Virus record (IMG/VR): IMGVR_UViG_3300023202_000053 | Coordinates: 1-39,148 of that record | DNA length: 39,148 nucleotides | Reading direction: 5' to 3' (one strand) | DNA from: a virus | Shown here: positions 2,047 to 39,009 of the stretch, piece after piece | How positions within the stretch are numbered: position 1 is the first letter of the stretch | How the letters are laid out: each line of letters starts with the position of its first letter | Translations under genes and position numbers: made by a program | The notes under the pieces: model-generated | Databases searched by the model: none | The model's input: the letters and a program-made list of their open reading frames with translations, nothing else | Told to the model about the DNA's origin: nothing

Positions 2047-2134
2047 CTCTCGCTTCGCGTCCTGTAAGCCGCGCCCAGGTAATGTCAAACAGCGCCAACA
2101 TCGTGCCGAAGGCAACCTCGATGCGGTGGGTCAT
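2033..2134 (-). CDS. Microprotein, 33 aa
   Basis: Short gene directly after recT. Its ATG overlaps the recT stop (ATGA), and an AAGGGG ribosome binding site lies seven bases upstream. The protein begins MTHRIEVAFGTMLALFDITW, with a moderately hydrophobic stretch at residues 7-20, and ends in a charged tail. The next frame begins inside its 3' end, so coupling is intact on both sides. No function is recognised. Confidence 0.5.
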   Translation of the reverse strand: MTHRIEVAFGTMLALFDITWARLTGREARDDGD

Positions 2135-3231
2135 GCCTCAGCCCCTTCGTTCACACGCGCACGCTCCGCAGTGCCTTCGCTGTGGCCGCGCTTCCATTCC
2201 TCGGCGCGGGCTTCATCCTCGCGGACGTCTGCCGGGCAGGCTCGCTTCGATTTGCCGTCCAGCCCGGCCTGATAGCCCGCATCGTAATCGTCAGAGGCGG
2301 CCGCCCCGGACGACGCGCCCTCATCGCGCTCCGGGACGGCCTCGACCGCATCCGCACCGGAGGGAGGCTCGGCGTCGGATTGCGGCCCTGCCACCGCCGG
2401 GGCGGGATCACCGGCGGCGGGTTCCGTAGCGAATTCATCAAGGCTGGTCGGTTTGCCGTTGCCGTTCGTGTAGGCAATGGCGCTCTGTTTTGATACTCCC
2501 TGCGCAGGGGCCTCGCGGACCTCGCCCTGATACTGCGAGCGCGGCAGCGTGATCAGGCTGTCGTCACGCGACATCAGGTCCTGCAATTCCGGAGACAGCG
2601 GCAGCGCCTTGGCATGGCGTCGCATCACCGTTTTCCGGTACATTTCGGGGCGGAAAGCCGGATCCGACCATGGCCCGCTATCCTTCGATTTCGACTTCTG
2701 GCGGATCGCCTCAAGCTGGTCGATCGTCATGACCTCGCGGCTTTTGTAACCATCGCGGAAGGTTGCGATCGAATAGGCCGCGATGATCTTGCCGGGGCTG
2801 AACAGGTTCGGGGTGTGTTCGATGCGCTCGTCATCGCCGTAGAACACCTCGAAATGGTCGTTCTCATGCACGAGACGCGATTCCCACGAGACGATTTCGC
2901 CGGACTGGCGCACCTTCTTGCGCAGGCCTGCGATCATCGGGATGTACTGCACCTTCTTGATCCAGCCATTGCCGGACTTGGTGTTGTAGACGACAAGCGC
3001 GGCCTCGCGTCCGTCCGGCAAAAGCCCGTCCTGCGCGCACTGGACGCATGACATCATCAGGGAGCGCCGGTCAGCCTCCAGAAGCGCCGGGTCGCGCTGC
3101 ACTGCCGTCATGACGATGCGCCCGAACCGATCCACGCTGATGTGTTGGGGCAGCACCGTCTTGAACTGCGGCCCCATCTGCTCGATCTGGCCTCGCAGCG
3201 TGGCAACGGCCCTGGTCTGCTGCTCGCTCAT
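2131..3231 (-). CDS. recT: RecT-family single-strand annealing protein
   Basis: RecT proteins coat single-stranded DNA and anneal complementary strands, usually paired with a 5'-3' exonuclease in phage recombination. This 366-residue protein has the family hallmarks: an N-terminal helix region with VDRFGRIVMTAVQRDPALL, then LMMSCVQCAQDGLLPDGREAALV and the YIPMIAGLRKKVRQSGEI core (about residues 95-115), followed by SREVMTIDQLEAIR and PEMYRKTVMRRHAKALPLSPEL. Residues after about 235 are an acidic, alanine-rich, likely disordered tail. It is coupled by ATGA to a small basic protein and lies two genes downstream of the exonuclease, so the two probably act together in replication or recombination after infection. 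Confidence 0.95.
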   Translation of the reverse strand: MSEQQTRAVATLRGQIEQMGPQFKTVLPQHISVDRFGRIVMTAVQRDPALLEADRRSLMMSCVQCAQDGLLPDGREAALVVYNTKSGNGWIKKVQYIPMIAGLRKKVRQSGEIVSWESRLVHENDHFEVFYGDDERIEHTPNLFSPGKIIAAYSIATFRDGYKSREVMTIDQLEAIRQKSKSKDSGPWSDPAFRPEMYRKTVMRRHAKALPLSPELQDLMSRDDSLITLPRSQYQGEVREAPAQGVSKQSAIAYTNGNGKPTSLDEFATEPAAGDPAPAVAGPQSDAEPPSGADAVEAVPERDEGASSGAAASDDYDAGYQAGLDGKSKRACPADVREDEARAEEWKRGHSEGTAERARVNEGAEA

Positions 3232-3392: not shown

Positions 3393-3634
3393 GCCTCGAT
3401 CCCCTTCTCGCGCTTGCTTGGCGCCCAGATCGGCGGCGGCGTCACGCCGCAGTGAAAGGCATGCGCACGCTCAAGTTTGTTGATCGCAACCTGCGTGTAA
3501 TCGTCTGCGACCTGGTGCTGTCCCGCCTTCGCCCTGATCCGCGCCGTGCGCAGCAGCGCACTGACCTCGGTCAGCGTGGTGAGCAGGTCGATCTTCGTCA
3601 TCACGTAGTCGTGAACGGTGCGAAGGGGTTTCAT
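3389..3634 (-). CDS. Hypothetical protein, 81 aa
   Basis: I start this at ATG 3634, which overlaps the exonuclease stop (ATGA); the longer frame upstream is a shadow of the exonuclease. The protein is largely helical (MTKIDLLTTLTEVSALLRTA, then a basic helix) and ends in a Pro-rich, charged tail. It lies between the exonuclease and recT genes and is coupled at both ends. It may be a partner of the recombination proteins, but no motif supports this. Confidence 0.65.
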   Translation of the reverse strand: MKPLRTVHDYVMTKIDLLTTLTEVSALLRTARIRAKAGQHQVADDYTQVAINKLERAHAFHCGVTPPPIWAPSKREKGIEA

Positions 3635-4551
3635 GCCGCCTTCTCCTGCTTGTGCCTGCGGGTGACGCGAAGCTGACGGAACTCGTTCGGCTCGACCGTG
3701 TAGCCGGCGCGCTTTTGCAGCTTCCAGGTGATCTTGTAGTCCGGGTGCTCGGCTATCTCGGCGTCGCCAAGAATCGCGCAGATTTCCGCGTCGATCGTCT
3801 TGAGCGCCTGATCCGCAGACTTGCGCCGGTCCAGCCATGTCAGCCGTTCCTCGCAAAGTGATGCGATGCGGTTGTGGTCACTCAGATCGACGCTTTCCAG
3901 ACGCGGGCGGGCGTACATCTGGCGGATCACCGCGGCGTCTTGGCTGAAGTCGAATTCCGGCGGATCGTTCGTCTCGACGCGACGCCAGAAGTCCGCAACC
4001 ATGTCGAGGATGCGCCCTTCAGCAAGCGCATGGCGATGCACCGGAAATTCGCGGTAATCATCTGTCCAGAAATCGCGCACCAGCGCCACGATCACGGCGG
4101 CGTCGGCATCGCGCAGCATGGCGTTTGCCAATGCCTGAAGCTGGTATTTCAGCGGCGGGCCGTCGCTCCAGTCCTGCTCGAACACCGGCTTGACCACGGA
4201 CTTGCATTCGACGACCAGGCGGCGATCATCATCATCGCGCGCCAGCGCATCCGACGTTGCCCCGAGGCGGTGATCCGTGCTGCGCACATATTCGCGCGGG
4301 CGCTGGATCGTCCAGCCGGGCCGCATTTCCTGTAGGGCCTCCAGGACGGCGGCTTCCTGCCACCGGCCACGCTGCAAGACGCCGTTGTCACTGGCATCAA
4401 TGCGACCGGATACCTTTTCCTCGTAAACCGCGCGTGCCGAGCGGTGCTGGTCGCAGCCGGCCAGCGCGCCGATCTCTGATGCCGTGATGTCGGCAAGCCG
4501 CCAGCGGAGCCATTCCTCGCGCGACTGAATCGGATGCGTGGTGATGTTCAT
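3631..4551 (-). CDS. YqaJ/RecE-like phage exonuclease (PD-(D/E)XK)
   Basis: Phage recombination nuclease expected to resect double-stranded DNA ends for the RecT partner. The 306-residue protein shows the YqaJ-type layout: SREEWLRWRLADITASEIGALAGC near the N-terminus, a conserved GRWQEAAVLEAL helix, the catalytic aspartate region (LGATSDALARDD), and the VECKSV motif (E-x-K) around residue 115. KYQLQALANAML follows. The C-terminal third is helical and ends in a basic tail. It overlaps both neighbours by ATGA. Confidence 0.9.
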   Translation of the reverse strand: MNITTHPIQSREEWLRWRLADITASEIGALAGCDQHRSARAVYEEKVSGRIDASDNGVLQRGRWQEAAVLEALQEMRPGWTIQRPREYVRSTDHRLGATSDALARDDDDRRLVVECKSVVKPVFEQDWSDGPPLKYQLQALANAMLRDADAAVIVALVRDFWTDDYREFPVHRHALAEGRILDMVADFWRRVETNDPPEFDFSQDAAVIRQMYARPRLESVDLSDHNRIASLCEERLTWLDRRKSADQALKTIDAEICAILGDAEIAEHPDYKITWKLQKRAGYTVEPNEFRQLRVTRRHKQEKAA

Positions 4552-5326: not shown

Positions 5327-5656
5327 CTAGCTCAGGGAAATCCCGACATTCTCATGCGGGGCGAGCTCATACGCCGCCGCGTCGATGCAGCGGCCCTTGT
5401 GATGGGACAGGATGAAATCGCAGGCGCTCTCAAGCGCCTCGCCCGACAACAGACGCCATTCCGATGCCGGCCAGACCCGGAACCAGACATCCGCGATTTC
5501 GAGATCAAACGCGCGCGGCGCACCAACATCCGGCTCGGCGCGAAACTCGTCCAGAACCGCGAATTCGGCGCGAAGCTCGCACGACTCAGGAAGTTCGCCG
5601 TCCGGCGCGAAGTGCGACCGGCTCGGATCAGTGCTGGCGTCAAGGGTGATGCTCAT
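5327..5656 (-). CDS. Hypothetical protein, 109 aa, first gene of the leftward operon
   Basis: Start taken at ATG 5656 (MSITLDASTDPSRSHF). The protein is acidic with two tryptophans in a WFRVWPASEWRLLSG segment and has no membrane span. As the first gene after the long structured leader, it should be the earliest leftward product, a position that in lambda-like phages is held by regulators or host-takeover proteins. No family is recognised. The ribosome binding site is weak (GGGACAG), so folding of the leader hairpin may matter for its expression. Confidence 0.6.
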   Translation of the reverse strand: MSITLDASTDPSRSHFAPDGELPESCELRAEFAVLDEFRAEPDVGAPRAFDLEIADVWFRVWPASEWRLLSGEALESACDFILSHHKGRCIDAAAYELAPHENVGISLS

Positions 5657-5674: not shown

Positions 5675-5728
5675 GGCGGAGCCCCAAGGGAAACTACACA
5701 AAAACCCCGGGGCTCCGCCTCCCCGCTA
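5675..5728 (-). promoter_or_regulatory. Long hairpin in the leftward leader, just before the first gene
   Basis: GGCGGAGCCCC (5675-5685) and GGGGCTCCGCC (5709-5719) form an 11-bp perfect inverted repeat. TAGCGG and CCGCTA extend it, with a few unpaired bases. It lies 19 bases before the first start codon of the leftward operon, within its untranslated leader and downstream of an intrinsic terminator. It could be an antitermination element, an RNA-processing site or an attenuator. The pairing is seen; the role is inferred. Confidence 0.6.
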
Positions 5729-5781
5729 CCGACGCAAAACCTCTGGCCGCAGGGAAACTCGTTGGCTTGAGCGCCTTCCCC

Positions 5782-5809
5782 AAAAAAGGGCGGGGCCGAA
5801 GCCCGCGCC
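5782..5809 (-). terminator. Intrinsic terminator in the leftward leader
   Basis: Read leftward: GGCG, a bulged C, GGGC, loop TTCG, GCCC, CGCC, then C and six T. The UUCG tetraloop, eight GC pairs and U-tract make a strong terminator. It sits about 90 bases after the inferred start of the leftward transcript and 126 bases before the first gene. The leader should therefore end as a short RNA of about 115 nt unless RNA polymerase is modified. Confidence 0.75.
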
Positions 5810-5897
5810 AAGTTGATGGGAGGAAACGCCCAATGAGGGCACGCGGCGACTTCCGGTCCTGAGTGCGTAATCCACGAGCTTCCGTCGCTGCGTGGAA
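5810..5897 (-). ncRNA. Possible leader-derived small RNA of the leftward promoter
   Basis: The untranslated leader from about 5895 to the terminator at 5782 contains no convincing ORF and can form a CCACG/CGTGG stem near its 5' end. With early termination it would be an RNA of about 115 nt. Roles as a regulatory RNA or only an attenuated leader are both possible. Confidence 0.35.
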
Positions 5898-6044
5898 GTA
5901 ACCTTAGATTACGGCTGACCGGCGTGTCAATTAAAAAAGTAATTTTCTGTTACGCGCCTGAGTGGCACATTCTGGGCATCTATTTTTGAGCCTTGAAGGG
6001 GGGGGCAGAACAGACGGCGAACATGCGTCGTAACCCGAGGTTAC
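5898..6044. promoter_or_regulatory. Left operator group, three 15-bp sites
   Basis: Three pseudo-palindromes of the form GTAAY-N5-RTTAC occur at 5898-5912 (GTAACCTTAGATTAC), 5939-5953 (GTAATTTTCTGTTAC) and 6030-6044 (GTAACCCGAGGTTAC). Matching sites lie on the other side of the HTH gene. Paired operator groups around a repressor gene are the classical immunity-region layout. A separate run of eight G lies at 5998-6005. Confidence 0.8.
5901..5930 (-). promoter_or_regulatory. Leftward early promoter (PL-like)
   Basis: On the minus strand, a consensus TTGACA (5930-5925) is followed by 18 bases and TAAGGT (5906-5901). The -10 lies inside operator 5898-5912, so repressor binding should block polymerase. 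The rightward promoter has the same build (TTGACA, 18 bases, TAACGT inside an operator), which supports both calls. Confidence 0.65.
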
Positions 6045-6118
6045 GCGGTAGAACAATGTCTGTACATATTTCGTAAAGCCGACAAGCAGCTTGTTACGAA
6101 GTGTTCAAGTCACATGGG

Positions 6119-6140
6119 AAAAAACCGGCGCAACATGCCG
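6119..6140 (-). terminator. Terminator after the repressor gene
   Basis: Leftward, CGGC-ATGTTGC-GCCG is followed by a run of six T after one G. It lies 15 bases beyond the repressor stop codon and would end the repressor transcript before it runs into the left operator region. The stem is short, so the termination strength is uncertain. Confidence 0.6.
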
Positions 6141-6154
6141 TCAAACAGCGCGAA

Positions 6155-6430
6155 TCAGGCTGAGACGCGAGCGGCCCCCTTGTCAGCAGTTTCTGACTCG
6201 GGTTGAGCGGGTGGCGTCTTGGTGGGCTTGGCTGCCAGGGGCAGAAGATCGTTCGGGGTGATCTCCAGCAGCTCGCAGATACGCACTAAGGTATCGTAAT
6301 TCGGCTCGGATTCGCCGCGCTCATATTTGCGGTATGTATGAGCGTCGAGATTCAGCACGCCAGCAAACCGGGCTGCTGTCTCGTATTTCGCTTCACGCGC
6401 CGTCCTGAGACGATCGGCAAAAGTTTTCAT
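6155..6430 (-). CDS. HTH (XRE/Cro-CI type) repressor, 91 aa
   Basis: Likely immunity repressor of the phage. Residues 4-62 form a standard XRE helix-turn-helix: ADRLRTAREAKYETAARFAG, then a recognition helix region AHTYRKYERGESEPNYDTL and LVRICELLEITPNDLL. The C-terminal 25 residues are Pro/Lys-rich and disordered. There is no autoproteolytic LexA/CI peptidase domain, so induction must differ from lambda CI. Six 15-bp operators flank the gene. Start at 6430 has a weak GGA site; an in-frame ATG at 6472 abuts operator 6476-6490 and is an alternative. With no second HTH gene alongside, it could act as both CI and Cro. Confidence 0.85.
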   Translation of the reverse strand: MKTFADRLRTAREAKYETAARFAGVLNLDAHTYRKYERGESEPNYDTLVRICELLEITPNDLLPLAAKPTKTPPAQPESETADKGAARVSA

Positions 6431-6475
6431 GATCCGAGTGTATCGGCTGGTGTTGGGTCGGCGCTGGGTCATGGG

Positions 6476-6573
6476 GTAATTATTCGTTACCCCGCGACCC
6501 GAACGCACGTGATGATTTGTTACCAGCATATCGGGTTGACATAAAGGGCGCAAGACGCGTAACGTCAAGTTAC
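6476..6573. promoter_or_regulatory. Right operator group, three 15-bp sites
   Basis: Sites at 6476-6490 (GTAATTATTCGTTAC, flanked by GGG and CCC for an extended palindrome), 6509-6523 (GTGATGATTTGTTAC, one half-site mismatch) and 6559-6573 (GTAACGTCAAGTTAC). The first lies just upstream of the repressor gene and probably gives autoregulation; the last overlaps the -10 of the rightward promoter. Confidence 0.8.
6536..6565 (+). promoter_or_regulatory. Rightward early promoter (PR-like)
   Basis: TTGACA at 6536-6541, an 18-base spacer and TAACGT at 6560-6565. The -10 is weak by consensus and sits inside operator 6559-6573. The arrangement mirrors the leftward promoter exactly. The first gene follows at 6619 behind GGAG. 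Confidence 0.6.
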
Positions 6574-6618: not shown

Positions 6619-7386
6619 ATGAGCGCGTTGCCTGCCGAGGTCGAAAGCGTCGACACGCTGCCGTCACTCATAGACCGCGCAGCGTCTGCGCTGATGAACG
6701 CGCGCACCGCCGCCGAGGTGCTGGAAGCGCGCGAACTGGCTGGCCAAGCCTACGACCAGGCAAAGCGGCTAGCCCGGCTAGCGCGAGCCAAGGGCGCTCA
6801 TGATGAACTGCTGGCGAGGGTGCACCGGGCGCAAGCTGACGCACTGGAGATCGAGGCCGCGGCCAAGCGGCGGCTGGCGGATGAATATGACGCGGCGCAG
6901 GCGCGGGGAGAAGTTGTTGGACACGGTGGCGACAGGAGCAAGGTCGAAAATTCCGACCTTGCTACGACCGCTCAACTTGGCCTGACGAAACAGGACATCC
7001 ACGAATCGCGCCGTCTGCGCGACGCCGAGAAGGCGGACCCCGGCGTCACCAAACGCATTCTGAATGAGCGGATCGACGCTGGTGAAGAGCCGAGCAAGGC
7101 CGCGTTGCGCAAGGGAATCGTCGCGGCATCAACTCAAGCGCTGCGCGGTGGCTCTGGCGCCGGAACCAGCCGCAAGAACCCTATGCACCGTCCAGACCCT
7201 CAGTCCGATGTGTCGACGCTCGTTGTCGGATCGTGCCGCCGCCTTCTGGATGGCGCGAAAGACTATGCGCCGGAATTCATCATCGGCGGCTTCCATGATG
7301 ACGGGGATCGTGCGCGGGCGCTGGCGGTGATGGCTGAGTGCCGAGACCTTCTTACCGATATTTTGGAGACAGCTAATGTTGAATGA
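6619..7386 (+). CDS. Phage early protein, 255 aa, helical (possible DNA-binding)
   Basis: First gene of the rightward operon. ATG 6619 is used because GGAG precedes it by seven bases; upstream in-frame codons lie in the promoter. The protein is strongly helical and alanine-rich for residues 10-100 (YDQAKRLARLARAKGAHDEL), then has a GGDRSKVENSDL linker and a segment LTKQDIHESRRLRDAEKADP with a helix-turn-helix feel, followed by basic residues. As I recall, proteins with this C-terminal pattern occur in many proteobacterial phages as hypothetical or ParB-like proteins. Its place right after PR suggests a regulator or replication factor; neither is shown. Confidence 0.7.
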   Translation: MSALPAEVESVDTLPSLIDRAASALMNARTAAEVLEARELAGQAYDQAKRLARLARAKGAHDELLARVHRAQADALEIEAAAKRRLADEYDAAQARGEVVGHGGDRSKVENSDLATTAQLGLTKQDIHESRRLRDAEKADPGVTKRILNERIDAGEEPSKAALRKGIVAASTQALRGGSGAGTSRKNPMHRPDPQSDVSTLVVGSCRRLLDGAKDYAPEFIIGGFHDDGDRARALAVMAECRDLLTDILETANVE

Positions 7387-8540: not shown

Positions 8541-8978
8541 ATGCAATCACCATGGACAGAAGCCGAAATCCAGACGCTGCAAAAGATGTATCGCGATGGC
8601 GCCAGCTTTTCCGCAATCGCCGATCAGGTCGGTCGAAGCCGGGTTGCGGTTGCCGGGCGCGCGCGCCGGCTTGGGCTAGCACGCACTGGCGGAACCCAAA
8701 AACATGCCAACAACTCGGCAAAAAGGCAGGCCAAGAAGCGGTGGCACCTGAATCCGCGTCCCGAGGACTGTTTGCCGCCTCGATTGCCGGTCCAGACGGA
8801 ACCAGCGCCAGATGGCCTTGTCGGGCTGCTGGATCTCACGGCGACATCGTGCCGATGGCCATTTGGTGAACCAGGCGCGCCGGATTTCGGCTTCTGCGGC
8901 AAGCGCAAGCACGAGCTCGGCCTGCCCTATTGCAGCAAACATATGGCACGCGCTTGCAGCAAGCACCCGAAGCTGTGA
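8541..8978 (+). CDS. gcrA: GcrA-family cell-cycle regulator homologue
   Basis: GcrA is an alphaproteobacterial transcription factor that binds the housekeeping sigma factor region of RNA polymerase and activates promoters carrying GANTC sites methylated by CcrM. This 145-residue protein has the N-terminal DNA-binding helix-turn-helix (WTEAEIQTLQKMYRDGASFS to VAVAGRARRLGL, residues 5-46), a variable linker, and the C-terminal polymerase-contact signature LLDLTATSCRWPFGEPG followed by FCG and LPYCSKH (residues about 95-133). All hallmark parts are present, so it is probably active. AAGGGG precedes the ATG. In a phage early operon it may redirect transcription or tie phage growth to the host cell cycle. 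Confidence 0.9.
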   Translation: MQSPWTEAEIQTLQKMYRDGASFSAIADQVGRSRVAVAGRARRLGLARTGGTQKHANNSAKRQAKKRWHLNPRPEDCLPPRLPVQTEPAPDGLVGLLDLTATSCRWPFGEPGAPDFGFCGKRKHELGLPYCSKHMARACSKHPKL

Positions 8979-9009
8979 CGAGCAGCACGTCTGGCTGAAG
9001 GGATGCACC

Positions 9010-11658
9010 ATGCCACCACGCCGCGACATCAAGGCGGAAATCGCCGGGCGGGAAACCGAAATCCTCACCGCGCTCGGCATTCCGTGGCCGCCTCCCGGCC
9101 GTCAGCGGCATATCAACTGCCCCTTTCCCGATCACGACGACAAGCACCCTTCATGGCGTTGGGATGACCGCGAGACGCGGTGGCACTGCACATGCGGATC
9201 AGGCGACGTTCTGGATGCCGCGCAGCGGATGGGAAAGGCATCGGACTTTCCCGGCGCAGCCGATTATGCGCGGGATGTGTGCGGGCTGGAAAAGACGTCG
9301 AAAGCCTATACCAACGGTCACGCACCATCCGAGCATGGCAACGCAGCGCGCGCCGTCTGGCAGCCGATTCACCCCGTCCCCGCTGATGCCCCCAAGCCAG
9401 ACCTGAAGCATTACAAGCACGGCAAACCAGCAAGCGTCTGGGAATATCTGGACGCGCAAGGAAAGCTGCTCGGGATCGTATGCCGGTTCGATCTGCCGGA
9501 CGGCAGCAAGGAGATCGTCCCGCTCAGCTATTGCGCGCATACCGGCAACGGCAAGCGCGCATGGCGATGGCTGTCCTTCGCCAAGCCGCGCCCGCTCTAT
9601 GGCCTCGATCTGCTCGCGGAACGCCCGGAGGCACCCGTACTTCTTGTGGAGGGCGAGAAGACGGCGGATGCAGCCGAGCCGATTGCGCCAGATTACATCA
9701 CGGTGACGTGGCCGGGCGGAACCGGGGCCGTTGGCATGGTCGACTGGGAGCCGCTGCGCGGGCGCGACGTCGTGCTCTGGCCGGATCACGACCTGCATGT
9801 CTACCCGGACAGCCATTCCCGCGCGGGCGAACAGAAGCCGCTGCACGAGCAGCCCGGCCTCAAGGCGATGCACAGGATTGCGCAGGCGCTCGATCGCCTC
9901 GCGGCGTCTGTTCGCATCGTCGATACATACAGCACACAAACAGACTTTCCCGATGGCTGGGACCTGGCCGATGCGTTGCCGGAGGGAATCACCCGCGCCG
10001 ATCTGAGGCGGATGATCGTCGAGGCAAAAGCGCCGGACGAATTGCCGCCGGAAAGCGCGCCAGAACACGCCCAGCCAGAAAGGGCGGCGCCGCCCGCCTC
10101 AGACGATGACGGCAAGCCCGTGGTGCGGATCTATGGCGGCGCATTGTCGGAAGCCGCATCAGAAGCCGAAAAGCACCTGATCGACGCCGGCGCGCATCTC
10201 TATCAGCGCGGCGACAAGCTCGTGCGCCCTGTTCTGTCAACTCTGAAGGATGCGCGCAAGCAGGACACCAGATCAGCCAGCCTTGCGAGTGTCGAGACGA
10301 CTTATCTGCGCGACCTGCTGTGCAGGCACATGCGCTGGGAGCGGTTTGCCCGGCGCGAGAAGGAGTGGATCGGCATAGACCCGCCGCGCGAAGTTGCCGA
10401 GACCATCATTGCGCGAGGCAGCGAGCTCGGCTTCAGGCCGGTCACTGGCGTGATCATGACGCCGACGCTGCGCCCGGACGGCTCGGTCCTGTCGCAAGCT
10501 GGCTATGACGACGCCACGGGGCTTCTGGTCATTGACCCGCTGCATCTGCCGGACATGCCGCAACGTCCCAGCTTCGACCAGGCCTATGAAGCGCTGAACG
10601 AGCTCGATGGGCTGCTCGACGAATTTCCGTTCGTCTCTGAAGCGGCTCGCACGGTGGCGCTCTCGATGATCCTGACATCCGTGACGCGCGGCGCATATCC
10701 CGCTGTTCCCATGCATGCGGTGCGCGCGCCCGCGGCCGGGACCGGCAAGTCATTCCTCGTCGATCTCGTCTCCGTAATCGCCACGGGCGAGCTATGCCCG
10801 GTGCTGTCCGGCTCGCCGAAGCCCGAAGAAATGGAAAAGCGCCTCGGCGCAGCAGCCATCGCGGGCTATCCGATCGTGAGCCTCGATAACGTCAATGCCG
10901 ATCTCGGCGGCGATTTCTTATGCCAGATGATCGAGCGCCCGATGGTCGCGCCGCGCCTGCTCGGCAAATCCGAATTGGTGAAGGTCCCGAACACTTCGAC
11001 GTTGTTCGCTACCGGCAACAACATGCGCTTCGTCGGCGACATGACGCGCCGTGTGCTGATCTGCGATCTAGACCGCCAGGAAGAGCGCCCGGAACAGCAC
11101 CAGTTCGCCAAGCGCCCGCTGGACGCCGTTCGCGCCAATCGCGGCAAATACATCGCCGCCGCCCTCACCGTCGTCAGCGCCTATCTGTCCACGCACAGAC
11201 CTGCAAGCAAACCGCTGCTGGCGTCGTTCGAGGACTGGTCGCGCACCGTCCGTGAAGCGCTGCTCTGGCTGGGCCGCGAGGATCCTGTCAGCACGATTGA
11301 AGCCGCCCGATCCGACGATCCGGAACGCGAGGCGCTGGCGATCATGATCACGGCCTGGGCCGAGGTGTTTGGCACCGGCGCGAACACCGCTGCACCCGTT
11401 TCCGAGGCGATTTCGAAGAGCCAGGAGCGCGAATTTTCCTACGACGATATCGGGCGAGTTTCTGGAGAAACGCAAAAACTCAAAAACTCGCATTTGCATG
11501 AAGCGCTGATGCAGGTTTCGCCGCGCGGCCAGCCAAATTCCCGTTCACTGGGCTGGTGGCTGAAACGGAACGAGGGAAAAATCGTTTACGGTCAATATTT
11601 TAGGTCCGTCTTTGATGGGCATTTGGGAGCTAGAAGATGGTATGTCGAGAAAACCTGA
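9010..11658 (+). CDS. Primase-helicase, 882 aa
   Basis: Replication protein combining primase and helicase functions. Start at ATG 9010, behind AAGGGA; the frame is open further upstream but that part is a shadow of gcrA. Residues about 32-75 are a zinc-binding primase module (INCPFPDHDDKHPS, then WHCTCGSGD). A Toprim-like domain follows near 208-265 (VLLVEGEKTADAAE, then VLWPDHD). The C-terminal half is a P-loop ATPase with Walker A AAGTGKSF near residue 577, a SLDNVNADLGGDF segment and TLFATGNNMRFVGDMTRRVL, as in phage and plasmid superfamily 3 or D5-like helicases. No separate DNA polymerase gene is seen, so the phage probably uses host polymerase III. Confidence 0.9.
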   Translation: MPPRRDIKAEIAGRETEILTALGIPWPPPGRQRHINCPFPDHDDKHPSWRWDDRETRWHCTCGSGDVLDAAQRMGKASDFPGAADYARDVCGLEKTSKAYTNGHAPSEHGNAARAVWQPIHPVPADAPKPDLKHYKHGKPASVWEYLDAQGKLLGIVCRFDLPDGSKEIVPLSYCAHTGNGKRAWRWLSFAKPRPLYGLDLLAERPEAPVLLVEGEKTADAAEPIAPDYITVTWPGGTGAVGMVDWEPLRGRDVVLWPDHDLHVYPDSHSRAGEQKPLHEQPGLKAMHRIAQALDRLAASVRIVDTYSTQTDFPDGWDLADALPEGITRADLRRMIVEAKAPDELPPESAPEHAQPERAAPPASDDDGKPVVRIYGGALSEAASEAEKHLIDAGAHLYQRGDKLVRPVLSTLKDARKQDTRSASLASVETTYLRDLLCRHMRWERFARREKEWIGIDPPREVAETIIARGSELGFRPVTGVIMTPTLRPDGSVLSQAGYDDATGLLVIDPLHLPDMPQRPSFDQAYEALNELDGLLDEFPFVSEAARTVALSMILTSVTRGAYPAVPMHAVRAPAAGTGKSFLVDLVSVIATGELCPVLSGSPKPEEMEKRLGAAAIAGYPIVSLDNVNADLGGDFLCQMIERPMVAPRLLGKSELVKVPNTSTLFATGNNMRFVGDMTRRVLICDLDRQEERPEQHQFAKRPLDAVRANRGKYIAAALTVVSAYLSTHRPASKPLLASFEDWSRTVREALLWLGREDPVSTIEAARSDDPEREALAIMITAWAEVFGTGANTAAPVSEAISKSQEREFSYDDIGRVSGETQKLKNSHLHEALMQVSPRGQPNSRSLGWWLKRNEGKIVYGQYFRSVFDGHLGARRWYVEKT

Positions 11659-12124: not shown

Positions 12125-12588
12125 CCGAAGAGCAGCTTCGTAAGGCATGGGCGGAAAGCCTCGGAAAGCAGTCGCGCATCGAAGCGCCGGAAAGCAGCCC
12201 TGAGCCGGAACCAGAACCGCAACCCGATCTCACCGACCGCGAGCGCGCCAGGTGGGCCGCTGTCGAATTCCAGATGCGCGAGGTCATGTCGGGGATCGAC
12301 GCCGCATGGAGCCGTCATGAGCGTGCGGTGCATGCTGCTGCTGCTGCGCGATTGCCGCGTCATCAGCGCGCCAAGTCCGGGCGGCCGCCGGAAAAGTTTG
12401 ATCGCGCCATTGCCGAGATGCGCCGCCGTCCGAATGCATCGCTGCGCGAAGTCGCAAAGGCAACCGGCGTGTCTTACAACACCGTGAAAAAGGCGCGGAA
12501 GGTAATGCGAGATCAGGCGCGAGCATCAGAGGGGTTTACAACCGCGAGGGGTTCTGGCAATGTCAGCACAAATCGAGAATGTGTCTAG
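12121..12588 (+). CDS. HTH DNA-binding protein, 155 aa
   Basis: The C-terminal half contains a helix-turn-helix (FDRAIAEMRRRPNASLREVA followed by KATGVSYNTVKKARKVMRDQ) of the type seen in AsnC/resolvase-like HTH proteins. The N-terminal half is acidic and Pro/Glu-rich (EPEPEPQPDLTDRERARW) and then helical. It lies between the primase region and the NusG paralogue, overlapping the latter by 29 bases. It may regulate the early-late switch. No exact family assignment. Confidence 0.65.
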   Translation: MTEEQLRKAWAESLGKQSRIEAPESSPEPEPEPQPDLTDRERARWAAVEFQMREVMSGIDAAWSRHERAVHAAAAARLPRHQRAKSGRPPEKFDRAIAEMRRRPNASLREVAKATGVSYNTVKKARKVMRDQARASEGFTTARGSGNVSTNRECV

Positions 12589-13186
12589 CGACCCGCGCCA
12601 GAGCTGCCCGGAAGGGATGTGCTCCGGGGTCCATACGGCGGCAAGCCCCAAAAGGGCCTCTGCGGCCGAATGGGAAAATGCACCCAAAAATTGGGTGGTG
12701 CTGCGGGTCTTGCCTCAAACCGAATTCCAGACCGCAACCGCGCTCAGGGCCAGCGGCTTCGCAGCGCTCGTGCCGTATGAACGGAAATTCCGGCGTTACG
12801 GTTCCCGGCGACGCCGTGTGCCGCGAGACTATCCGCTGTTCCCCCGCTATGTCTTCGCGGATATGCTCTCAGAGGCGAAATTAGCGTCGCTGACGGGGGT
12901 TTCCGGCGTGTCCGGTATACTGACAGCGGGCGGTAGAGTTTATCGCCTCAGCGGCCCGGAAATCGGCTGGATACGCAGCCTCGCCGAACGCTGCGATCAA
13001 ATCGAGGGCATCAACCTGCACACCGCATTGCAGCGCGGACAATGGGCGCGAATCGCCGAAGGCCCGCTTTCCGGGTTGCTTGGCTACGTCGATGCCATCA
13101 GGGGCCAGCGCGCATCCATGCTGCTCGAAATGCTCGGCGTCTGGCGCAGCGTCGATGTCCCCCTCGCCGATCTGGAGGCCGCGTGA
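12560..13186 (+). CDS. NusG-family transcription antitermination protein (paralogue)
   Basis: NusG-type factors bind the clamp of RNA polymerase and adjust pausing and termination. This 208-residue protein has an N-terminal extension of about 40 residues and then an NGN domain (NWVVLRVLPQTEFQTATALR, LVPYERKFRRYG, PRDYPLFPRYVFADM, residues about 43-150). A KOW-type domain follows (RGQWARIAEGPLSGLLGYVD, about 160-200). This is the layout of specialised NusG paralogues such as RfaH and LoaP. Sitting directly before the late genes, it is the best candidate for a functional counterpart of lambda Q or N, acting on the terminators and hairpins seen here. The exact target is not identifiable from sequence. 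Confidence 0.85.
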   Translation: MSAQIENVSSDPRQSCPEGMCSGVHTAASPKRASAAEWENAPKNWVVLRVLPQTEFQTATALRASGFAALVPYERKFRRYGSRRRRVPRDYPLFPRYVFADMLSEAKLASLTGVSGVSGILTAGGRVYRLSGPEIGWIRSLAERCDQIEGINLHTALQRGQWARIAEGPLSGLLGYVDAIRGQRASMLLEMLGVWRSVDVPLADLEAA

Positions 13187-15116: not shown

Positions 15117-15382
15117 TTGATAATCGTCTCGTAACAAGCGATCAGCGAGCGTTGGCGGAGAGGGTGTTCGATGCTGTCCGGACATGTGGCGTCGCCGTCG
15201 ATTACGTGATTGGCCTTGAGCGCGAAGCGCTTGGGCTGGCCATACAACTGCCGTCAGGGCTTCGACGCGCCTATCGTGTGCAAACCAGAGATCGTGCACA
15301 TGAAAAGGTGCTGGGCGATGTTAAGGCGTGGACGCAAAAAGAGCTTGAGCGCGACCAGGAGCGCATGAATGGCGCTGATTGA
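15104..15382 (+). CDS. Hypothetical protein between terminase and portal, 92 aa
   Basis: Overlaps the terminase end by 13 bases and the portal start by 14 bases, so it belongs to the packaging transcript. The product is a single soluble domain with ALAERVFDAVRTCGVAVDYV near the N-terminus and a charged C-terminal helix (KAWTQKELERDQERMNGAD). No motif is recognised. Its location suggests a packaging or head accessory role. Confidence 0.6.
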   Translation: MGGMIDNRLVTSDQRALAERVFDAVRTCGVAVDYVIGLEREALGLAIQLPSGLRRAYRVQTRDRAHEKVLGDVKAWTQKELERDQERMNGAD

Positions 15383-17432
15383 TAGCATCGAGGAGAGCGA
15401 CGAGCACCAGACCGCCGAGGCCGATCCGTTCCGCGACGATGAAGAACTGCTCGGCAAGCTCAAGCGCTGGGAACAGGAAGCGCGCAAGCACTGGTCGAAA
15501 TGGCGCGAGGAAGCGCGTACCTGTTACGACTTCTTTGCCGGGCATCAGTGGTCGCAGGACGACAAGACGTCGCTGATCGAGCAGATGCGCCAGCCGGTGA
15601 CGTTCAATCGCATCGGCCCGATGATCGACGCTGTGACCGGCGCTGAAATTCTCAACCGGCAGGAAGTGCGCTACCAGCCGCGCGAGCTTGGCGACGTGCA
15701 GGTCAATGAGCTGATCACGGCGGCCGATGAATGGGCGCGCGACCTTGCCGACACTGAAGATGAGGAAAGCGATGCGTTCTCCGATCTTGTGATCTGCGGG
15801 ATGGGATGGACGGAAACGCGGATGGACTATTCCGAAAACCCGGAAGGCGTGATTGTCGACGATCGCATCGACCCGCTGGAGATGTGGACCGATCCGCAGG
15901 CGCGCAAACGCTGCCTGTCCGATGCCCGCTACCACATCCGCGCGCGGTGGCGGAACAAGGACGAGCTGCCAAAGAAATGGCGCGCCAAGCTGCCTGTCGG
16001 CGGCGGCACCGATGACCGCTACAGTACCGAAGACGTACAGTCCGGCTGGACCGGCCCGCGCGACGACTACCAGCGCGAAGAGCTTGGCGACAAGGACGCC
16101 GGCGTTGATCGCAGCCGTCAGGTCTGGGTACGGCACATACAATGGCGCGAGAAGGAGGCGGCATTTCGCATTGCCGATCCTCTGTCCGGGCAGCTTCGCA
16201 CCGTCACGAAGCAGGAATCGCGGCAGATCGCCGAGATGTTCCTTGCCCAAGGGATGCGCCCGCCGCGCGCTGTCCAGATCGAGCAGGACCGCTATTTCGA
16301 GGCATTTCTCGCCGGCGGCGTGATCCTCGAAAAGCGTCCGATCGAAGCGAATGCGTTCACGTTCAAGGCGATTACGGGCAAGCGCGACCGCAATGCCGGG
16401 ACCTGGTATGGCCTGGTGCGCGCGATGATTGACCCGCAGATGTGGGGCAACAAGTTCTTCGTTCAGATCATGCATATCCTGAACACTGCGGCGAAGGGCG
16501 GGATCATGTATGAGACGGGCGCATTCGCGAACCCGCGCAAGGCGCTTGAAGAATGGGCGCGTCCCGACTCGGCAATCGAGCTGTCTCAGAACGCGCTGAT
16601 ACAGGGCAAGGTCAAGGAGCGTGAGGCGCGCACCTATCCGCAGGGCCTTGACCGGCTGATGGAGTTCACGCTCAACAACCTGCCGCAGACATCCGGCGTG
16701 AACCTGGAGATGCTTGGCCTCGTCGATCGCGAGCAGCCGGGCGTGCTGGAGGTGCAGCGCAAGAAGTCGGGTTATGCGATCCTTGCCGTGTTCTTCGACA
16801 GCTTGCGCCGCTATCGCAAGGAGAAGGGGCGGCTGCGCCTGTACTACATCCAGAATTACATTTCCGATGGCCGCCTGATCCGCATCAAGGGCGAAGACGC
16901 GACGTCACGCTATGTGCCGCTGGTCAAGCAGGAAGGCACGGCGGAATACGATGTCGTCGTCGACGAAGCGCCGATGTCGCCGAACCAGAAGGAGGCGGTC
17001 TGGCAGATGCTGATGCAGATGATGCCGGTGCTGCAAAACCTTGATGTGCCGCCGGATGTCTGGGGCCTGATGCTTGAGCATTCGCCTCTGCCGTCGCATG
17101 TGTCCGGCAAGATCAGGCAGACGCTCCAGCAGGCCGCTGAGCAGCCTGAGCAGCCCGACCCGGAAGCGATGAAGGCGCAAGCCGAGGTGCAGCGTGACCA
17201 GCAACAGCACCAGATGAAGATGGCTGAAGGCCAACAGCAGATGCAGCAGCGGCGCGAAGAGCACGCGCTAAGCATGCGCCAGCAGCAGGCCGATCTTGCC
17301 GCCGAGCTTGTCAAGTCCGGCCTTGATATCGAGACGGCGCGGGAGAAGGCGGCGGCGGCGATCGCGCAGGCGCAGGCCACGCGCCGCGAGGTAAACCAAC
17401 CCACGAGAGCGAACGGAAGAGCAGCAGCATGA
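15369..17432 (+). CDS. P22-type portal protein, 687 aa
   Basis: The portal forms the dodecameric ring at the DNA entry vertex. Family features are the N-terminal WRTCYDFFAGHQW-like segment (here RTCYDFFAGHQWSQDD), FNRIGPMIDAVTGAEILNRQ, the SDLVICGMGWTETRMDY block and PLEMWTDPQARKR with RYHIRARW. Later come DVVVDEAPMSPNQKEAVWQM and a Gln-rich, Ala-rich C-terminal barrel-like helix (residues about 590-687). The 687-residue length is close to that of P22 gp1. A good AGGAG site precedes ATG 15369, and the stop overlaps the scaffold start by ATGA. Confidence 0.92.
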   Translation: MALIDSIEESDEHQTAEADPFRDDEELLGKLKRWEQEARKHWSKWREEARTCYDFFAGHQWSQDDKTSLIEQMRQPVTFNRIGPMIDAVTGAEILNRQEVRYQPRELGDVQVNELITAADEWARDLADTEDEESDAFSDLVICGMGWTETRMDYSENPEGVIVDDRIDPLEMWTDPQARKRCLSDARYHIRARWRNKDELPKKWRAKLPVGGGTDDRYSTEDVQSGWTGPRDDYQREELGDKDAGVDRSRQVWVRHIQWREKEAAFRIADPLSGQLRTVTKQESRQIAEMFLAQGMRPPRAVQIEQDRYFEAFLAGGVILEKRPIEANAFTFKAITGKRDRNAGTWYGLVRAMIDPQMWGNKFFVQIMHILNTAAKGGIMYETGAFANPRKALEEWARPDSAIELSQNALIQGKVKEREARTYPQGLDRLMEFTLNNLPQTSGVNLEMLGLVDREQPGVLEVQRKKSGYAILAVFFDSLRRYRKEKGRLRLYYIQNYISDGRLIRIKGEDATSRYVPLVKQEGTAEYDVVVDEAPMSPNQKEAVWQMLMQMMPVLQNLDVPPDVWGLMLEHSPLPSHVSGKIRQTLQQAAEQPEQPDPEAMKAQAEVQRDQQQHQMKMAEGQQQMQQRREEHALSMRQQQADLAAELVKSGLDIETAREKAAAAIAQAQATRREVNQPTRANGRAAA

Positions 17433-18855: not shown

Positions 18856-20746
18856 ATGTCTGACACAGTCTATGGCGTTAATGCGCCAGAGGCGGTTTGA
18901 CTTCAGACCCCTAGTCCGGTAACGGATTAGTGTTAATCGGGTGAATTCAGGGGAAACCGAGAACCGGCAACCCTGAGCCAAGCAGTCTGAGATGAGCAAA
19001 CCTCTACAGCCATGCAAAATTTGCGGGAAAACGCGTCAGGAGACCGACTTTCGGTATAGGCGACGCATCTGTAAATCTTGCGAAGACGCGCCGATGCGCC
19101 GCTGTTCTGGATGTGGAGAAGAGAAACCGAGAGCATCGTTTCATAAGAGTAGGGGCCTTACCGGCCTCAGAAACCTCTGCACCAAGTGCCGTTACAGCAA
19201 GGAGCGCGACGCTAATATCAGGAGCGCACGCCAACGGCATCTGAGGCTGCAAAGCATGGTGTTTGAGGCTTATGGACGAGTGTGCGCGTGCTGCGGCGAG
19301 CATCGGCGGTCGATGTTGACCATTGATCACATCGACAATGACGGCGCAGCACATCGTAAAGCCTTGACGGCCAGATACAAGGCTCACAAGTGGCGCGGCG
19401 CAAACCTCGGCGGCACGGCCGTTTATGCTGATCTTGTGAAGCGTGGGTTCCCGCAAGGATTTCAGGTCCTGTGCGCCAACTGCAACGCAAGCAAGGCTCG
19501 CAATGGCGGTGTCTGTGAACATCAGACTGAAGGTGCAACGACTATCCGCAACGGAGTAGACCGCAAGCGATTGGCGGTCGAAGCGCCCGACACCCTACGG
19601 GGTGATGATATAGTCTGCTCTGCATGGGAACATGCAGCAGTCTCTTCAGGAGGCGGGCGCGGAACTAGCGATCCGCGCTGAACACAAAGGAAACTATGGT
19701 CCCGCAAGCTTGCTCGGGAAGCGCTCAAGAAAACCTACATCAAGCGCTTCATGGGCAAGACCTCGTCCAGCATGATCATGCAGAAGGACGAGACCAACAA
19801 GGGACCCGGCGACCGCATCCGGTGCACGCTGCGCATGCAGCTCACCGGCGATGGCATCCAGGGCGACGGCACGCTGGAGGGCAACGAGGAGTCGCTCACC
19901 ACGTTCACCGACGACTTGATCATCAACCAGCTTCGGCACGCAGTGCGTTCCGAAGGCAAGATGACCGAACAGCGGATTCCGTTCTCCATTCGCGCAGAGT
20001 CGATGGAGGGCCTGTCCGACTGGATGGCTGACAGGTGGGATACCTGGTTCTTCAACCAGGTCTGCGGCTACACCCCGCAGAGCGACACCCGCTTCACCGG
20101 TCATAATTCGGTGTCCGCGGCCACGCGCATCGTGCGCCCCGGTTCGGTGTCTGCTGACCAGAGCCTGACCACGTCTGATGTCTTTTCGCTCATCCTGATC
20201 GACAAGGCCGTGGAAGAGGCGAAAGTCACGACGACCGGTTCGAACCCGCCGCCGATTCGCCCAATCATGGTGGATGGCAAGCCGTACTTCGTCGCATTCC
20301 TGCACCCCTATCAGGTGACGGACCTGCGCACGAAGACGTCGTCGAGCACCTCGCACCCGGTCCTCTGGTACGACATCCAGCGGTCGGCAATCGAGGGCGG
20401 CCAGCGCCAGGGCAACCCGATCTTCAACGGGGCGCTGGGCGAGTACAACGGTGTGATCTTGCATGAGAGCACCCGCGTCACTCAGGGCGTCAACGGTTCG
20501 GACAGCTCGGCAGCGGTCACGACTGCCCGCCGCGCGGTTCTGTGCGGCGCTCAGGCGGCCGTCTGCGGCTTCGGTCAAGGTCACGACAAGTCGACCTATG
20601 ACTGGTTTGAGCAGATGTTCGACTACGGAAACAAGCTTGGCGTGAAGGCGGGCTGCATCGCGGGTCTGAAGAAGTGCCAGTACGACAGTGCTGACTTCGG
20701 GGCCATCGTGATGTCGTCCTACGCCGCATCGCACGCGAGCTCGTAA
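18856..20746 (+). CDS. Major capsid protein, N4 gp56-like, interrupted by a group I intron
   Basis: Coding exons are 18856-18897 and 19691-20746; the joined product is 365 residues. Exon 1 encodes MSDTVYGVNAPEAV and is followed at once by an in-frame TGA. Exon 2 resumes with KLWSRKLAREALKKTYIKRF, then DETNKGPGDRIRCTLRMQLT, EGNEESLTTFTDDLIINQLR and RLQ-type beta-rich shell sequence. As I recall, N4 gp56-type coats contain an uninterrupted YGVNAPEAVKLWSRKL-like stretch, which fits the join exactly. GAGG lies eight bases before ATG 18856. Without splicing no capsid can be made from this ATG; starting at the internal ATG 19751 would lose 34 conserved residues. Confidence 0.92.
18898..19690 (+). 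ncRNA. Self-splicing group I intron (IA-like) in the capsid gene
   Basis: Pairings read directly: P1 GGTT|TG (18894-18899) with CAGACC (18904-18909), giving the diagnostic U-G wobble at the last exon base 18897; P2-like TCCG-GTAA-CGGA (18915-18926); P3 candidate TCGGG with CCCGA (19586-19590); P4 TTCAGGG (18946-18952) with CCCTGAG (18971-18977); P6a CAGTCTGA (18983-18990) with TCAGACTG (19522-19529); P7 GACTAT (19540-19545) with ATAGTC (19610-19615); P8 CACCC-TACG-GGGTG (19591-19604); P9 CTGCATG-GGAA-CATGCAG (19620-19637). A GACCGC/GCGGTC stem between P7 and P3' is the extra P7.2-type helix of subgroup IA. The last intron base is G at 19690. Precise joining restores the capsid frame. Confidence 0.92.
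18992..19681 (+). CDS. HNH homing endonuclease inside the intron
   Basis: The enzyme should cut intron-less capsid alleles so that the intron is copied in. The 229-residue frame starts two bases after the P6a left strand. It has two N-terminal CxxC pairs (CKICGK with CKSC, then CSGCGEEKPRASFHKS with CTKC) and an HNH core: CACC, LTIDHIDNDG with the catalytic His, and GFQVLCANCNASKARNG (residues about 95-170). Residues after about 176 are encoded by the intron's own P6-P9 core, so the tail is probably dispensable. No clear ribosome binding site precedes ATG 18992, as is common for intron enzymes whose expression is held low. Confidence 0.9.
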   Translation: MSKPLQPCKICGKTRQETDFRYRRRICKSCEDAPMRRCSGCGEEKPRASFHKSRGLTGLRNLCTKCRYSKERDANIRSARQRHLRLQSMVFEAYGRVCACCGEHRRSMLTIDHIDNDGAAHRKALTARYKAHKWRGANLGGTAVYADLVKRGFPQGFQVLCANCNASKARNGGVCEHQTEGATTIRNGVDRKRLAVEAPDTLRGDDIVCSAWEHAAVSSGGGRGTSDPR

Positions 20747-36362: not shown

Positions 36363-36571
36363 GTTTCTGTGCCCGTTTCTGTGCCACATGCGGTTTGCTG
36401 AAATCTGAAATCGTTGGTGAGCTTGGTCGGAGTGGCAGGATTCGAACCTGCGACCCCCTCGTCCCGAACGAGGCGTCATGCCTCGTCATCAGATATTTTT
36501 CGTTGCAAATCAACGATTTTCATTTCCGACACATCCCGAACGTTCCGCTTTGTTCCGGGTGTTTCTGTGCC
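36363..36571. other. Phage attachment site (attP) with tRNA-Pro core and arm repeats
   Basis: 36424-36473, read leftward, is the 3' part of a tRNA-Pro(CGG): anticodon arm CCTCG-TTCGGGA-CGAGG, T arm GCAGG-TTCGAAT-CCTGC, acceptor CACTCCG and encoded ACCA. Integration would rebuild the host tRNA gene. Direct repeats GTTTCTGTGCC lie at 36363-36373, 36375-36385 and 36561-36571, and TGAAATCGTTG (36406-36416) faces CAACGATTTTCA (36511-36522), as expected for integrase arm sites on both sides of the core. The segment ends two bases from the int stop codon. Confidence 0.88.
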
Positions 36572-37675
36572 GAAACGTTGCCATGGCCGGAACGCGCCGC
36601 GCGCCTGTTCCATGTGGTCGGGATGGTGGTGGCCATAGACGTCACGCAAGGTCTGCTCCGTCATCCCGAGATAGCCAGCCGCTTCCCAGATCGGAACGCC
36701 GGCCTGCATCATCCACGTCGCCGCGGTGTGGCGCAGCACATGCGGGGTGACATCCTCGCTCAAACCGGCATCGCGCGCGGCACGGGCGAAAGCCTTGCGC
36801 ACCGATCGCACCGGTCGTCCATTCCATTCCACTGCGAAGGTCTGCCCTATTGCCCGCCAGCGCCTGAGATGCGCCAGCAGCCCGTCCGGCAGCGGCACCG
36901 GCGGCCTGCGCTTCTTCGTCTCCCTCGCCCCCTGCGGCCTGCGGTAGAATACCCCTCCCTCCAGGTCGATCCAGCCATATCCCTCCAGCGGCTCGAACGA
37001 CGCCGAGCAGACCGATCCGGCCCGCGTGCCGGTATAAAGCGCGACGAGGATGAACCGCGCTACGTGACGCCGTGAGCGCCGTCCGGTCTCCCTCCCCTTC
37101 TGCACTTCGCGATATGCCCAAGCGGCCCGGATCAGCGCAGCCGCTTCACTGCGGTTCAGCCAACGTTGCCGGCTTGCCGATCGCTCCGGAAGCACGACCG
37201 AGACGATCTGCGCGCAAAGCCCTTCCTGCCGGTGATGATTGATCGCGGCGCGCAAATCCTCCAGCTCGCGCCTCGCGGCGGCCTGGCTCCCGCGTTCCCT
37301 GGCATAGCGCCGGCACAGAGCTCCGCTGACATCGGCGAGTGCCTTGCCTTCAAAGAAGTTGGCGAGCCGCAGAAGCCGGTCTGTTGTTTCGCTCGGGCGG
37401 GCTTGTTGGGGAACGATATCGGCGAGGTAGACGTTCAGGACATCCGCGATCAGGATTTGAGCGGGATCACGGTTGCTGGTCCGACTCGGCTGGTGCCGGT
37501 CGATGACGTATTGCGCAAGCGCGATTTCAGCTTGTTCGCGTTCGCTTTCAGCGCAGCCTGTGCTAATCCAGCGCGTTCCGTCGCGGATGATCCATGCCGG
37601 TTTCCGGATCTGGCCCCCGTCTTTTTCGACGCCTGGCCTGAGCCAGAGTCGCGGACCTGCTGACGCTCGCGGCAT
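36476..37675 (-). CDS. int: Tyrosine integrase, 399 aa
   Basis: Catalyses site-specific recombination between attP and the host tRNA-Pro gene. The N-terminus (PRLWLRPGVEKDGGQIRKPA, WIIRDGTRWISTGCAESER) is the form common in alphaproteobacterial prophages. Catalytic residues: Arg 218 in YTGTRAG, His 312 and Arg 315 in PHVLRHTAATW, and Tyr 347 in DVYGHHHPDH. The position usually held by His or Trp is Met 338 (GYLGM), which I believe is normal for this subfamily. The gene lies at the end of the leftward operon, next to attP. A rather long C-terminal tail (residues 365-399) reaches into the attachment region, and one arm repeat lies inside it. Confidence 0.95.
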   Translation of the reverse strand: MPRASAGPRLWLRPGVEKDGGQIRKPAWIIRDGTRWISTGCAESEREQAEIALAQYVIDRHQPSRTSNRDPAQILIADVLNVYLADIVPQQARPSETTDRLLRLANFFEGKALADVSGALCRRYARERGSQAAARRELEDLRAAINHHRQEGLCAQIVSVVLPERSASRQRWLNRSEAAALIRAAWAYREVQKGRETGRRSRRHVARFILVALYTGTRAGSVCSASFEPLEGYGWIDLEGGVFYRRPQGARETKKRRPPVPLPDGLLAHLRRWRAIGQTFAVEWNGRPVRSVRKAFARAARDAGLSEDVTPHVLRHTAATWMMQAGVPIWEAAGYLGMTEQTLRDVYGHHHPDHMEQARGAFRPWQRFGTETPGTKRNVRDVSEMKIVDLQRKISDDEA

Positions 37676-38267: not shown

Positions 38268-38575
38268 GCGGCGTTCTTTTCGTCTTTGAACCAACCCCGG
38301 AGATTTTCCAGCACCTCCATCGCCCGCCGTTTGTCGCCGCTCTTTTGCAGGGCGTCCATTGCCTTGTCGATCTTGCTGTAAGCTTCGCAAAGCCAGCGTG
38401 TGTGTGCGGACTGGAAAGTCCGGCACTTTTCAATAATCGCGTCGCGCTCGTCGAGCATCTCCTGCGGGTCGATGTCGCTGGGCTGTTCGTCGATCAGCCA
38501 GCAATCGGCGACTGCATGGATGAGATGCTCTGGCGTGACGCTCGCATCGAGCGCAAATTTGAAAGCTCCGTTCAT
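38264..38575 (-). CDS. Hypothetical protein, 103 aa
   Basis: ATG 38575 overlaps the rusA stop by one base (TGATG), and its own stop overlaps the next start by ATGA. The first part (MNGAFKFALDASVTPEHLIH) is followed by an acidic helical region (DIDPQEMLDERDAIIEKCRT, KIDKAMDALQKSGDKRRAME). No motif identified. Coupling suggests coordinated production with RusA. Confidence 0.65.
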   Translation of the reverse strand: MNGAFKFALDASVTPEHLIHAVADCWLIDEQPSDIDPQEMLDERDAIIEKCRTFQSAHTRWLCEAYSKIDKAMDALQKSGDKRRAMEVLENLRGWFKDEKNAA

Positions 38576-39009
38576 CACGCCACCTCCATCACCACAATCC
38601 AGCACCCCGGCGCTTCGTCGATCTCTGCCAGCCGCTTCGACGCGATCAGCGAAACAACCTGCGCATCGTCGCGCCAGCACCCGGCAGAGCCAATGGCGTC
38701 CAGCACGGCGCGCTCAAGCTTGTCGAGATCAGGCTTCTTGATTGCCGGCGGCGTGCGCTTTTTCGGTGTCGCGGACGGGCGCGGCATCACGAATGTCAGC
38801 CGCACAGCCACGGGACCGTCGAAATACGCTTTCGGACTTCCGTCAGCATCAAGCATCGCTGCACGCACATCCGCGCGCCATGGCTTCACCGCCTTGGACG
38901 ACTCGACCATCACCCCGCGCCCAAGATACCGCTTCGATCCCTGCGGGGCCGGGCGGCCAGGGACAAAGACGCTGATCTCGCGCGTGGCTGTGTCGATGTC
39001 AGCGGTCAT
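38575..39009 (-). CDS. rusA: RusA-family Holliday junction resolvase, 144 aa
   Basis: RusA enzymes cut four-way junctions formed during recombination and replication. The sequence has ISVFVPGRPAPQGSKRYLG at the N-terminus, a YFDGPVAVRLTFVMPRP strand, the signature KKPDLDKLERAVLDAIG with catalytic aspartates around residues 94-103, and WRDDAQVVSLIASKRLAE with two further Asp residues. Length 144 is close to the family norm. It works with the exonuclease and RecT encoded in the same operon. Confidence 0.92.
   Translation of the reverse strand: MTADIDTATREISVFVPGRPAPQGSKRYLGRGVMVESSKAVKPWRADVRAAMLDADGSPKAYFDGPVAVRLTFVMPRPSATPKKRTPPAIKKPDLDKLERAVLDAIGSAGCWRDDAQVVSLIASKRLAEIDEAPGCWIVVMEVA

Follow-up and report, generated by a model that had tools for sequence, protein, structure and literature searches.

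The DNA analysed here (the window) comprises all 39,148 bases of the IMG/VR record IMGVR_UViG_3300023202_000053. It represents a temperate podophage of the P22-like type whose early map resembles that of lambda; its host is probably an alphaproteobacterium. Terminase and head genes are present in addition to the following genes:

2131–3231, minus strand: RecT-like protein (family matches)
3631–4551, minus strand: RecE/YqaJ exonuclease
5327–5656, minus strand: first gene of the leftward early operon, an open frame of 109 aa, function unassigned
6155–6430, minus strand: XRE/HTH gene, 91 aa, candidate immunity repressor (from its translation and its cI-like position and orientation)
6619–7386, plus strand: first gene of the rightward early operon, 255 aa (PHROG 799; many viral relatives)
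8541–8978, plus strand: homolog of the GcrA cell-cycle regulator (Pfam E 4e-27)
8812–11658, plus strand: primase/helicase-like protein
12560–13186, plus strand: NusG-like antiterminator
15369–17432, plus strand: P22-like portal
36476–37675, minus strand: integrase
38575–39009, minus strand: RusA

As in lambda, the left operon carries recombination and integration genes and the right operon replication genes; RusA and the integrase, on the minus strand at the right end of the record, fit a circular map. The 109-aa product of the first leftward gene gave no family hits in Pfam or PHROG.

Other features of the record were observed. The C-terminal segment of the RecT-like protein matches ribosome modulation factor (28.3 bits, cut-off 27.9). 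An HNH ORF (18992–19681), just before the major head gene, lies within a group I intron-like match (RF00028, 18888–19637, plus strand, E 8e-9, below the gathering score); the match of the major head gene begins at profile position 35, and the intron-like element probably interrupts this gene. A tRNA-like Rfam match (36427–36538, minus strand, 33.2 bits), at which ARAGORN called no tRNA, overlaps the 3′ end of the integrase gene and is a possible attachment site. GANTC sites are depleted in the whole window (63 against ca. 182 in Markov shuffles), which suggests selection linked to CcrM methylation.

The repressor candidate and its operator sites

Domain searches with the 91-aa protein returned the Pfam domains HTH_31, HTH_3 and HTH_19 and PHROG repressor families only. 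The AlphaFold model is a five-helix XRE domain, followed from about residue 67–68 by a tail of low confidence that is probably disordered, judging by the model. The closest solved folds are the ICEBs1 ImmR domain, restriction-modification C proteins, P22 C2 and 434 Cro. The S24 peptidase C-terminal domain of CI/LexA-type repressors was found neither by the domain search nor in the model. The original prediction, made from the sequence alone, had described a compact 91-residue repressor candidate with no peptidase domain, and these results, with XRE-type HTH domains only, agree with it. Among named phage records, the HTH protein has five weak matches, all below 41% identity, and no close relative.

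Five exact matches to GTAAY-N5-RTTAC are present in the window, starting at positions 5898, 5939, 6030, 6476 and 6559, and there are no others in the 39,148 bases. The expected number is 0.02, and five or more were found in none of 100 shuffles. When two mismatches were permitted, 20 matches were retrieved against 11 expected, so only the cluster of sites is meaningful. The sites and the promoter elements near them are given below, with scores from a matrix built from sites of relatives only (see the next section).

5898–5912: left operator over the pL -10 region, GTAACCTTAGATTAC, exact match, 18.5 bits
5925–5930, minus strand: pL -35 hexamer TTGACA, identified by sequence between the 5939 and 5898 operators
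5939–5953: left operator immediately upstream of the pL -35, GTAATTTTCTGTTAC, exact match, 18.5 bits
6030–6044: third left operator, GTAACCCGAGGTTAC, exact match, 15.0 bits
6476–6490: right operator closest to the HTH gene, GTAATTATTCGTTAC, exact match, 18.0 bits
6509–6523: degenerate right operator, GTGATGATTTGTTAC, one mismatch, 9.5 bits, rank 8
6536–6541, plus strand: candidate pR -35 TTGACA, 18 bp before TAACGT (6560–6565) within the 6559 operator
6559–6573: right operator over the pR -10 region, GTAACGTCAAGTTAC, exact match, 18.6 bits

As can be seen, five intact sites and one degenerate site are split three and three around one HTH gene, the layout originally proposed. The sites in the left and right arrays have the same sequence form, as they do in lambda. 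The original prediction also depended on the motif not being common elsewhere in the genome, and exact sites do occur only at this locus in the whole phage record. A score of at least 9.5 bits is expected 0.005 times per 190 bp, and the degenerate site at 6509–6523 is probably real, if weakly supported. The 6476 site could act on the repressor's own promoter.

A family of related loci with a drifting operator code

Relatives were found by searches with the HTH protein and then with alignments of its relatives; members of the family come from other viral contigs and from one Paracoccus MAG. Eleven other phage or prophage loci contain the same HTH family together with 15-bp sites at equivalent positions, and the motif search in related prophages suggested with the original prediction was thus rewarded. 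A pair of sites is usually present upstream of the HTH gene and always downstream of it. The downstream pair, 39–41 bp apart in all 11 relatives and placed around the -35 element of a promoter, belongs to the most constant part of the locus, a module consisting of a site, 8–9 bp, TTGAC(A/G), 11–12 bp and a second site. The starts of the two sites are 40–41 bp apart in the window (41 bp from 5898 to 5939, with 5898 as the counterpart of the second site) and in ten relatives; the exception, L107, has a spacing of 39 bp and TAGACA where others have TTGACA. No downstream module was found in 100 shuffled windows.

In L206, L217, L227 and L230, the upstream pair is either degenerate or incomplete. 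In L005, the outer upstream site (L005 3714–3728) is identical to the 15-mer at 6559, the second upstream site begins 16 bp from it, and the two downstream sites are 40 bp apart. Counterparts of the 6030 and 6476 sites were not seen in the relatives. The three-plus-three design therefore stands for this record, but the core conserved in relatives is two plus two. Cooperative binding or looping over about 600 bp, which the original prediction saw as implied, is conjectural, and the distance between the left and right arrays ranges among relatives from about 0.4 to 1.2 kb. As in lambda, the divergent side of the relatives' loci encodes replication initiators, and genes for Erf, RecT or an exonuclease are found on the opposite side. 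GcrA is encoded in six of the seven records of HTH relatives, compared to one of 20 control phage records (with hosts unidentified) above the cut-off.

The operator code drifts between family members, as comparison of their sequences indicates. The half-site is GTAAC in L047 and L107, mostly GTACY in L210, L211 and L240, and GTAAA in L227, and it tends to GTAGA or GTAAA in L206 and L245. All 12 matches to GTAMY-N5-RKTAC in the records G005, G006 and G007 are located at the HTH gene. We looked for, and rejected, a simple correspondence between single recognition-helix residues and single operator bases: both A and C are seen at position 4 even among the sites of L005 alone or of L217 alone. Only a trend, seen in two proteins, associates HW helices with GTAGA or GTAAA sites. 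We define the GTA(MY)-N5-(RK)TAC XRE repressor family by an HTH protein scoring at least ca. 108 bits against the family profile and a downstream pair 39–41 bp apart around a -35 element; the window has both. The family is unnamed, its drifting operator code and two-plus-two core are what is new, and our literature search found no paper on the operator code.

The pairing of sites and protein was examined independently in several ways. When the window was scored with the matrix from relatives' sites, from which the window had been left out, the five exact sites took ranks 1–5 with 15.0–18.6 bits, and the next site scored 12.3. A protein-blind search of all viral contigs with the promoter-operator module alone retrieved 18 stretches, several of them known members and four of them new ones (L047, L227, L230 and L240), with an HTH gene upstream on the same strand; the other stretches look like chance or one repeated sequence. 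HTH genes scoring below ca. 67 bits against the family profile lack both site pairs. The left-out matrix, the blind search and the low-scoring genes together tie the operator code to the HTH family, and comparison supports the view that the sites would behave as operators of the adjacent protein's family.

That the dyads arose by chance, or are read by a host regulator and not by the adjacent protein, is extremely unlikely. While GTAAC-N5-GTTAC pairs do occur in many unrelated phages, the strong enrichment of the sites, their co-occurrence with one HTH family, their conserved spacing and the recovery of that family by the DNA module alone all speak for operators of the HTH protein. In Bacillus-like contigs (L011, L023, L029 and similar), an XRE gene that is longer and unrelated is preceded by three GTAAC-N5-GTTAC sites; these pairs were considered as part of the same family and rejected as belonging to a separate, weakly similar repressor group, and the Bacillus-like phages apparently reached the same operator code independently.

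Relatives collected through the first rightward gene (L126–L205) had no sites of the window's code, indicating that this gene is common to phages of other immunity. Among 391 Rhodobacterales genomes, the HTH gene was found in the starting genome only, and a wider class sample of genomes yielded only distant HTH genes, without sites.

Putative promoters and proposed control of the early operons

TTGAC is present at the position equivalent to the pL -35 in ten of 11 relatives. At pR, the elements of L005 (TTGACC, 17 bp, TAACGT) are arranged as in the window. A generic σ70 promoter scan identified no full-consensus promoter, and, judged by the E. coli rule, the -10 elements are weak; the promoter positions given here are accordingly putative. 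A GANTC (GcrA/CcrM) site at 6580, near pR, was considered and set aside, as none of the relatives' promoter regions inspected by eye showed an evident equivalent.

The candidate repressor gene is thus flanked by operators at two early promoters. The proposed likeness to lambda OL and OR is borne out by comparison: left operators at pL and right operators at pR enclose the candidate gene. As in lambda and P22 (CI or C2), the replication operon is divergent, the leftward recombination operon ends towards the integrase, and 15-bp dyads lie over promoter elements; the DNA-binding domain of P22 C2 is also a close fold match to the modelled 91-aa protein. The window differs from these phages in the small size of the protein, which has no cleavable C-terminal domain, in an unrelated operator sequence, and in having a conserved two-plus-two core with two extra sites. 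A separate Cro was not recognised on the right operon among the early ORFs scanned, the 6619–7386 product not being an HTH protein, and neither CII nor an antirepressor was recognised.

We consider it very probable, on comparative sequence grounds, that the locus is a lambda-like region for immunity and early control, in which a single compact repressor acts and no Cro, CII or cleavable CI is recognised. Most likely, the 91-aa XRE protein would bind the GTAAY-N5-RTTAC operators as a dimer. Bound at 5898 and 5939, which straddle the pL -35, it would block the leftward recombination operon; at 6559, which covers the pR -10, it would block the rightward replication operon, so that RNA polymerase would be stopped at both. 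Through 6476, 6509 and a leftward promoter likely overlapping 6559, the protein would control its own gene, and on its loss both early operons would start. Dimer binding, repression, autoregulation and lysogeny are what we infer from this arrangement, as is antitermination (see below).

The same protein might instead be a Cro-like damper of both early operons in the lytic phase, with lysogeny kept by another protein. Its 91-aa size does resemble that of Cro proteins, 434 Cro is among its close structural matches, and the loci of L047 and L249 include a second, larger HTH gene from this family. Yet the window's operators have only one HTH gene, whose position and orientation are those of cI and not of cro, and the proteins scanned included no other recognisable CI-like product; we regard a Cro-like role as rather unlikely. 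The second HTH gene of L047 (2452–3231, minus strand) is convergent with the first and encodes a hydrophobic, membrane-like C-terminus, and L249 takes an intermediate position, having one site and two HTH genes; the sites may therefore be shared by two proteins in some relatives. A remnant of the second L047 HTH gene was looked for in the window's gap at 5950–6155 and none was found, tblastn matching only the HTH gene itself.

Small autoregulators, restriction-modification controller (C) proteins in particular, were also considered, as the nearest solved structures include those of C.BclI, the Csp231I C protein and C.AhdI, and C proteins likewise have paired palindromes upstream of their own genes. 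This identity is very unlikely for the window's protein: no restriction-modification gene adjoins it, its neighbours are phage replication and recombination genes, and one of the arrays lies past the 3′ end of the gene, over a second promoter at the recombination operon.

Returning to a compact immunity repressor, other such proteins are known. The C repressor of phage P2 (ca. 99 aa) has no peptidase domain, is not cleaved by RecA and binds direct repeats at one promoter region. By description, the window's protein is like P2 C in being a compact single-domain repressor of a temperate phage, and differs from it in that the window has palindromes at two distant promoters. ICEBs1 ImmR is the closest solved DNA-binding domain, but ImmR and the XRE repressors of Bacillus phages are longer proteins, and no ImmA-like gene was recognised next to the window's HTH gene.

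Since the 91-aa protein has no S24 domain, lambda-type self-cleavage is unlikely. The original exclusion of SOS-type self-cleavage accordingly is probably right as far as RecA-triggered cleavage of the repressor is concerned, but does not extend to SOS induction in general, which may take a route other than self-cleavage. The reported alphaproteobacterial LexA motif is GTTC-N7-GTTC (PMC8565304). A match is present at 6008–6022, one of four found where 1.1 would be expected for the window, and relatives have not retained it.

An MmgR/SuhB-family sRNA element in the pL leader

The region between pL and the first leftward gene contains the following features:

5774–5847, minus strand: MmgR/SuhB-family sRNA element (Rfam RF00519, 41.9 bits, E 1.9e-5)
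5790–5806, minus strand: intrinsic terminator ending the sRNA-like leader
5708–5725, minus strand: second leftward terminator-like hairpin, before the first leftward gene

The match, which begins ca. 50 bases past the pL operator, covers the whole RF00519 model, including the GGGCGUUUCCUCCC segment and the terminator, and passes the gathering score of 41 marginally. Judging by this placement, pL probably drives the MmgR-like RNA. The pL transcript would first yield the MmgR-like leader ending at the terminator, and read-through into the recombination genes would therefore probably need antitermination. The NusG-like gene (12560–13186, plus strand) and the two leader terminators (5708–5806) make antitermination by a NusG paralogue possible.

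No Rfam match was found in the corresponding leader of the HTH relatives. The MmgR/SuhB RNA core is present in viral contigs in at least 113 distinct contexts, and Rfam confirmed eight of ten cases tested. In L382 and L384, an MmgR-like RNA is located just downstream of TTGACG, which has other palindromes on either side, and an XRE-like gene lies upstream; a RecE-like exonuclease follows the RNA in L384 and a GcrA-like gene in L382. Together with the window, this makes three operator-flanked early promoter leaders with an MmgR/SuhB element, and the arrangement in L382 and L384 indicates that a host-type sRNA in a pL leader recurs in unrelated immunity regions. In Sinorhizobium, MmgR is encoded by a host gene that is regulated in its own way (PMC7143759), whereas the window's element is part of a phage leader and stands under phage operators. 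The kind of system represented by the window is known; its variant and the leader RNA are not described in the literature searched.

The locus is a compact switch, with a one-domain candidate repressor and two or three sites per promoter, and the family offers about a dozen natural protein-operator pairs that vary at operator positions 4 and 5 and are useful for the study of the recognition code. Tentatively, and with more doubt than confidence, we suggest that there may be an unnamed, widespread group of alphaproteobacterial phages with a one-repressor switch whose code drifts with the protein, some of which may have, as the first product under pL, a mimic of the MmgR-type anti-Shine-Dalgarno sRNA of the host, so that leaving lysogeny would release a host-directed RNA at once. 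If the pL leader truly yields an MmgR-like RNA, a host-type sRNA would be under the direct control of the phage decision circuit, connecting lysogeny to post-transcriptional control in the host in a new way.
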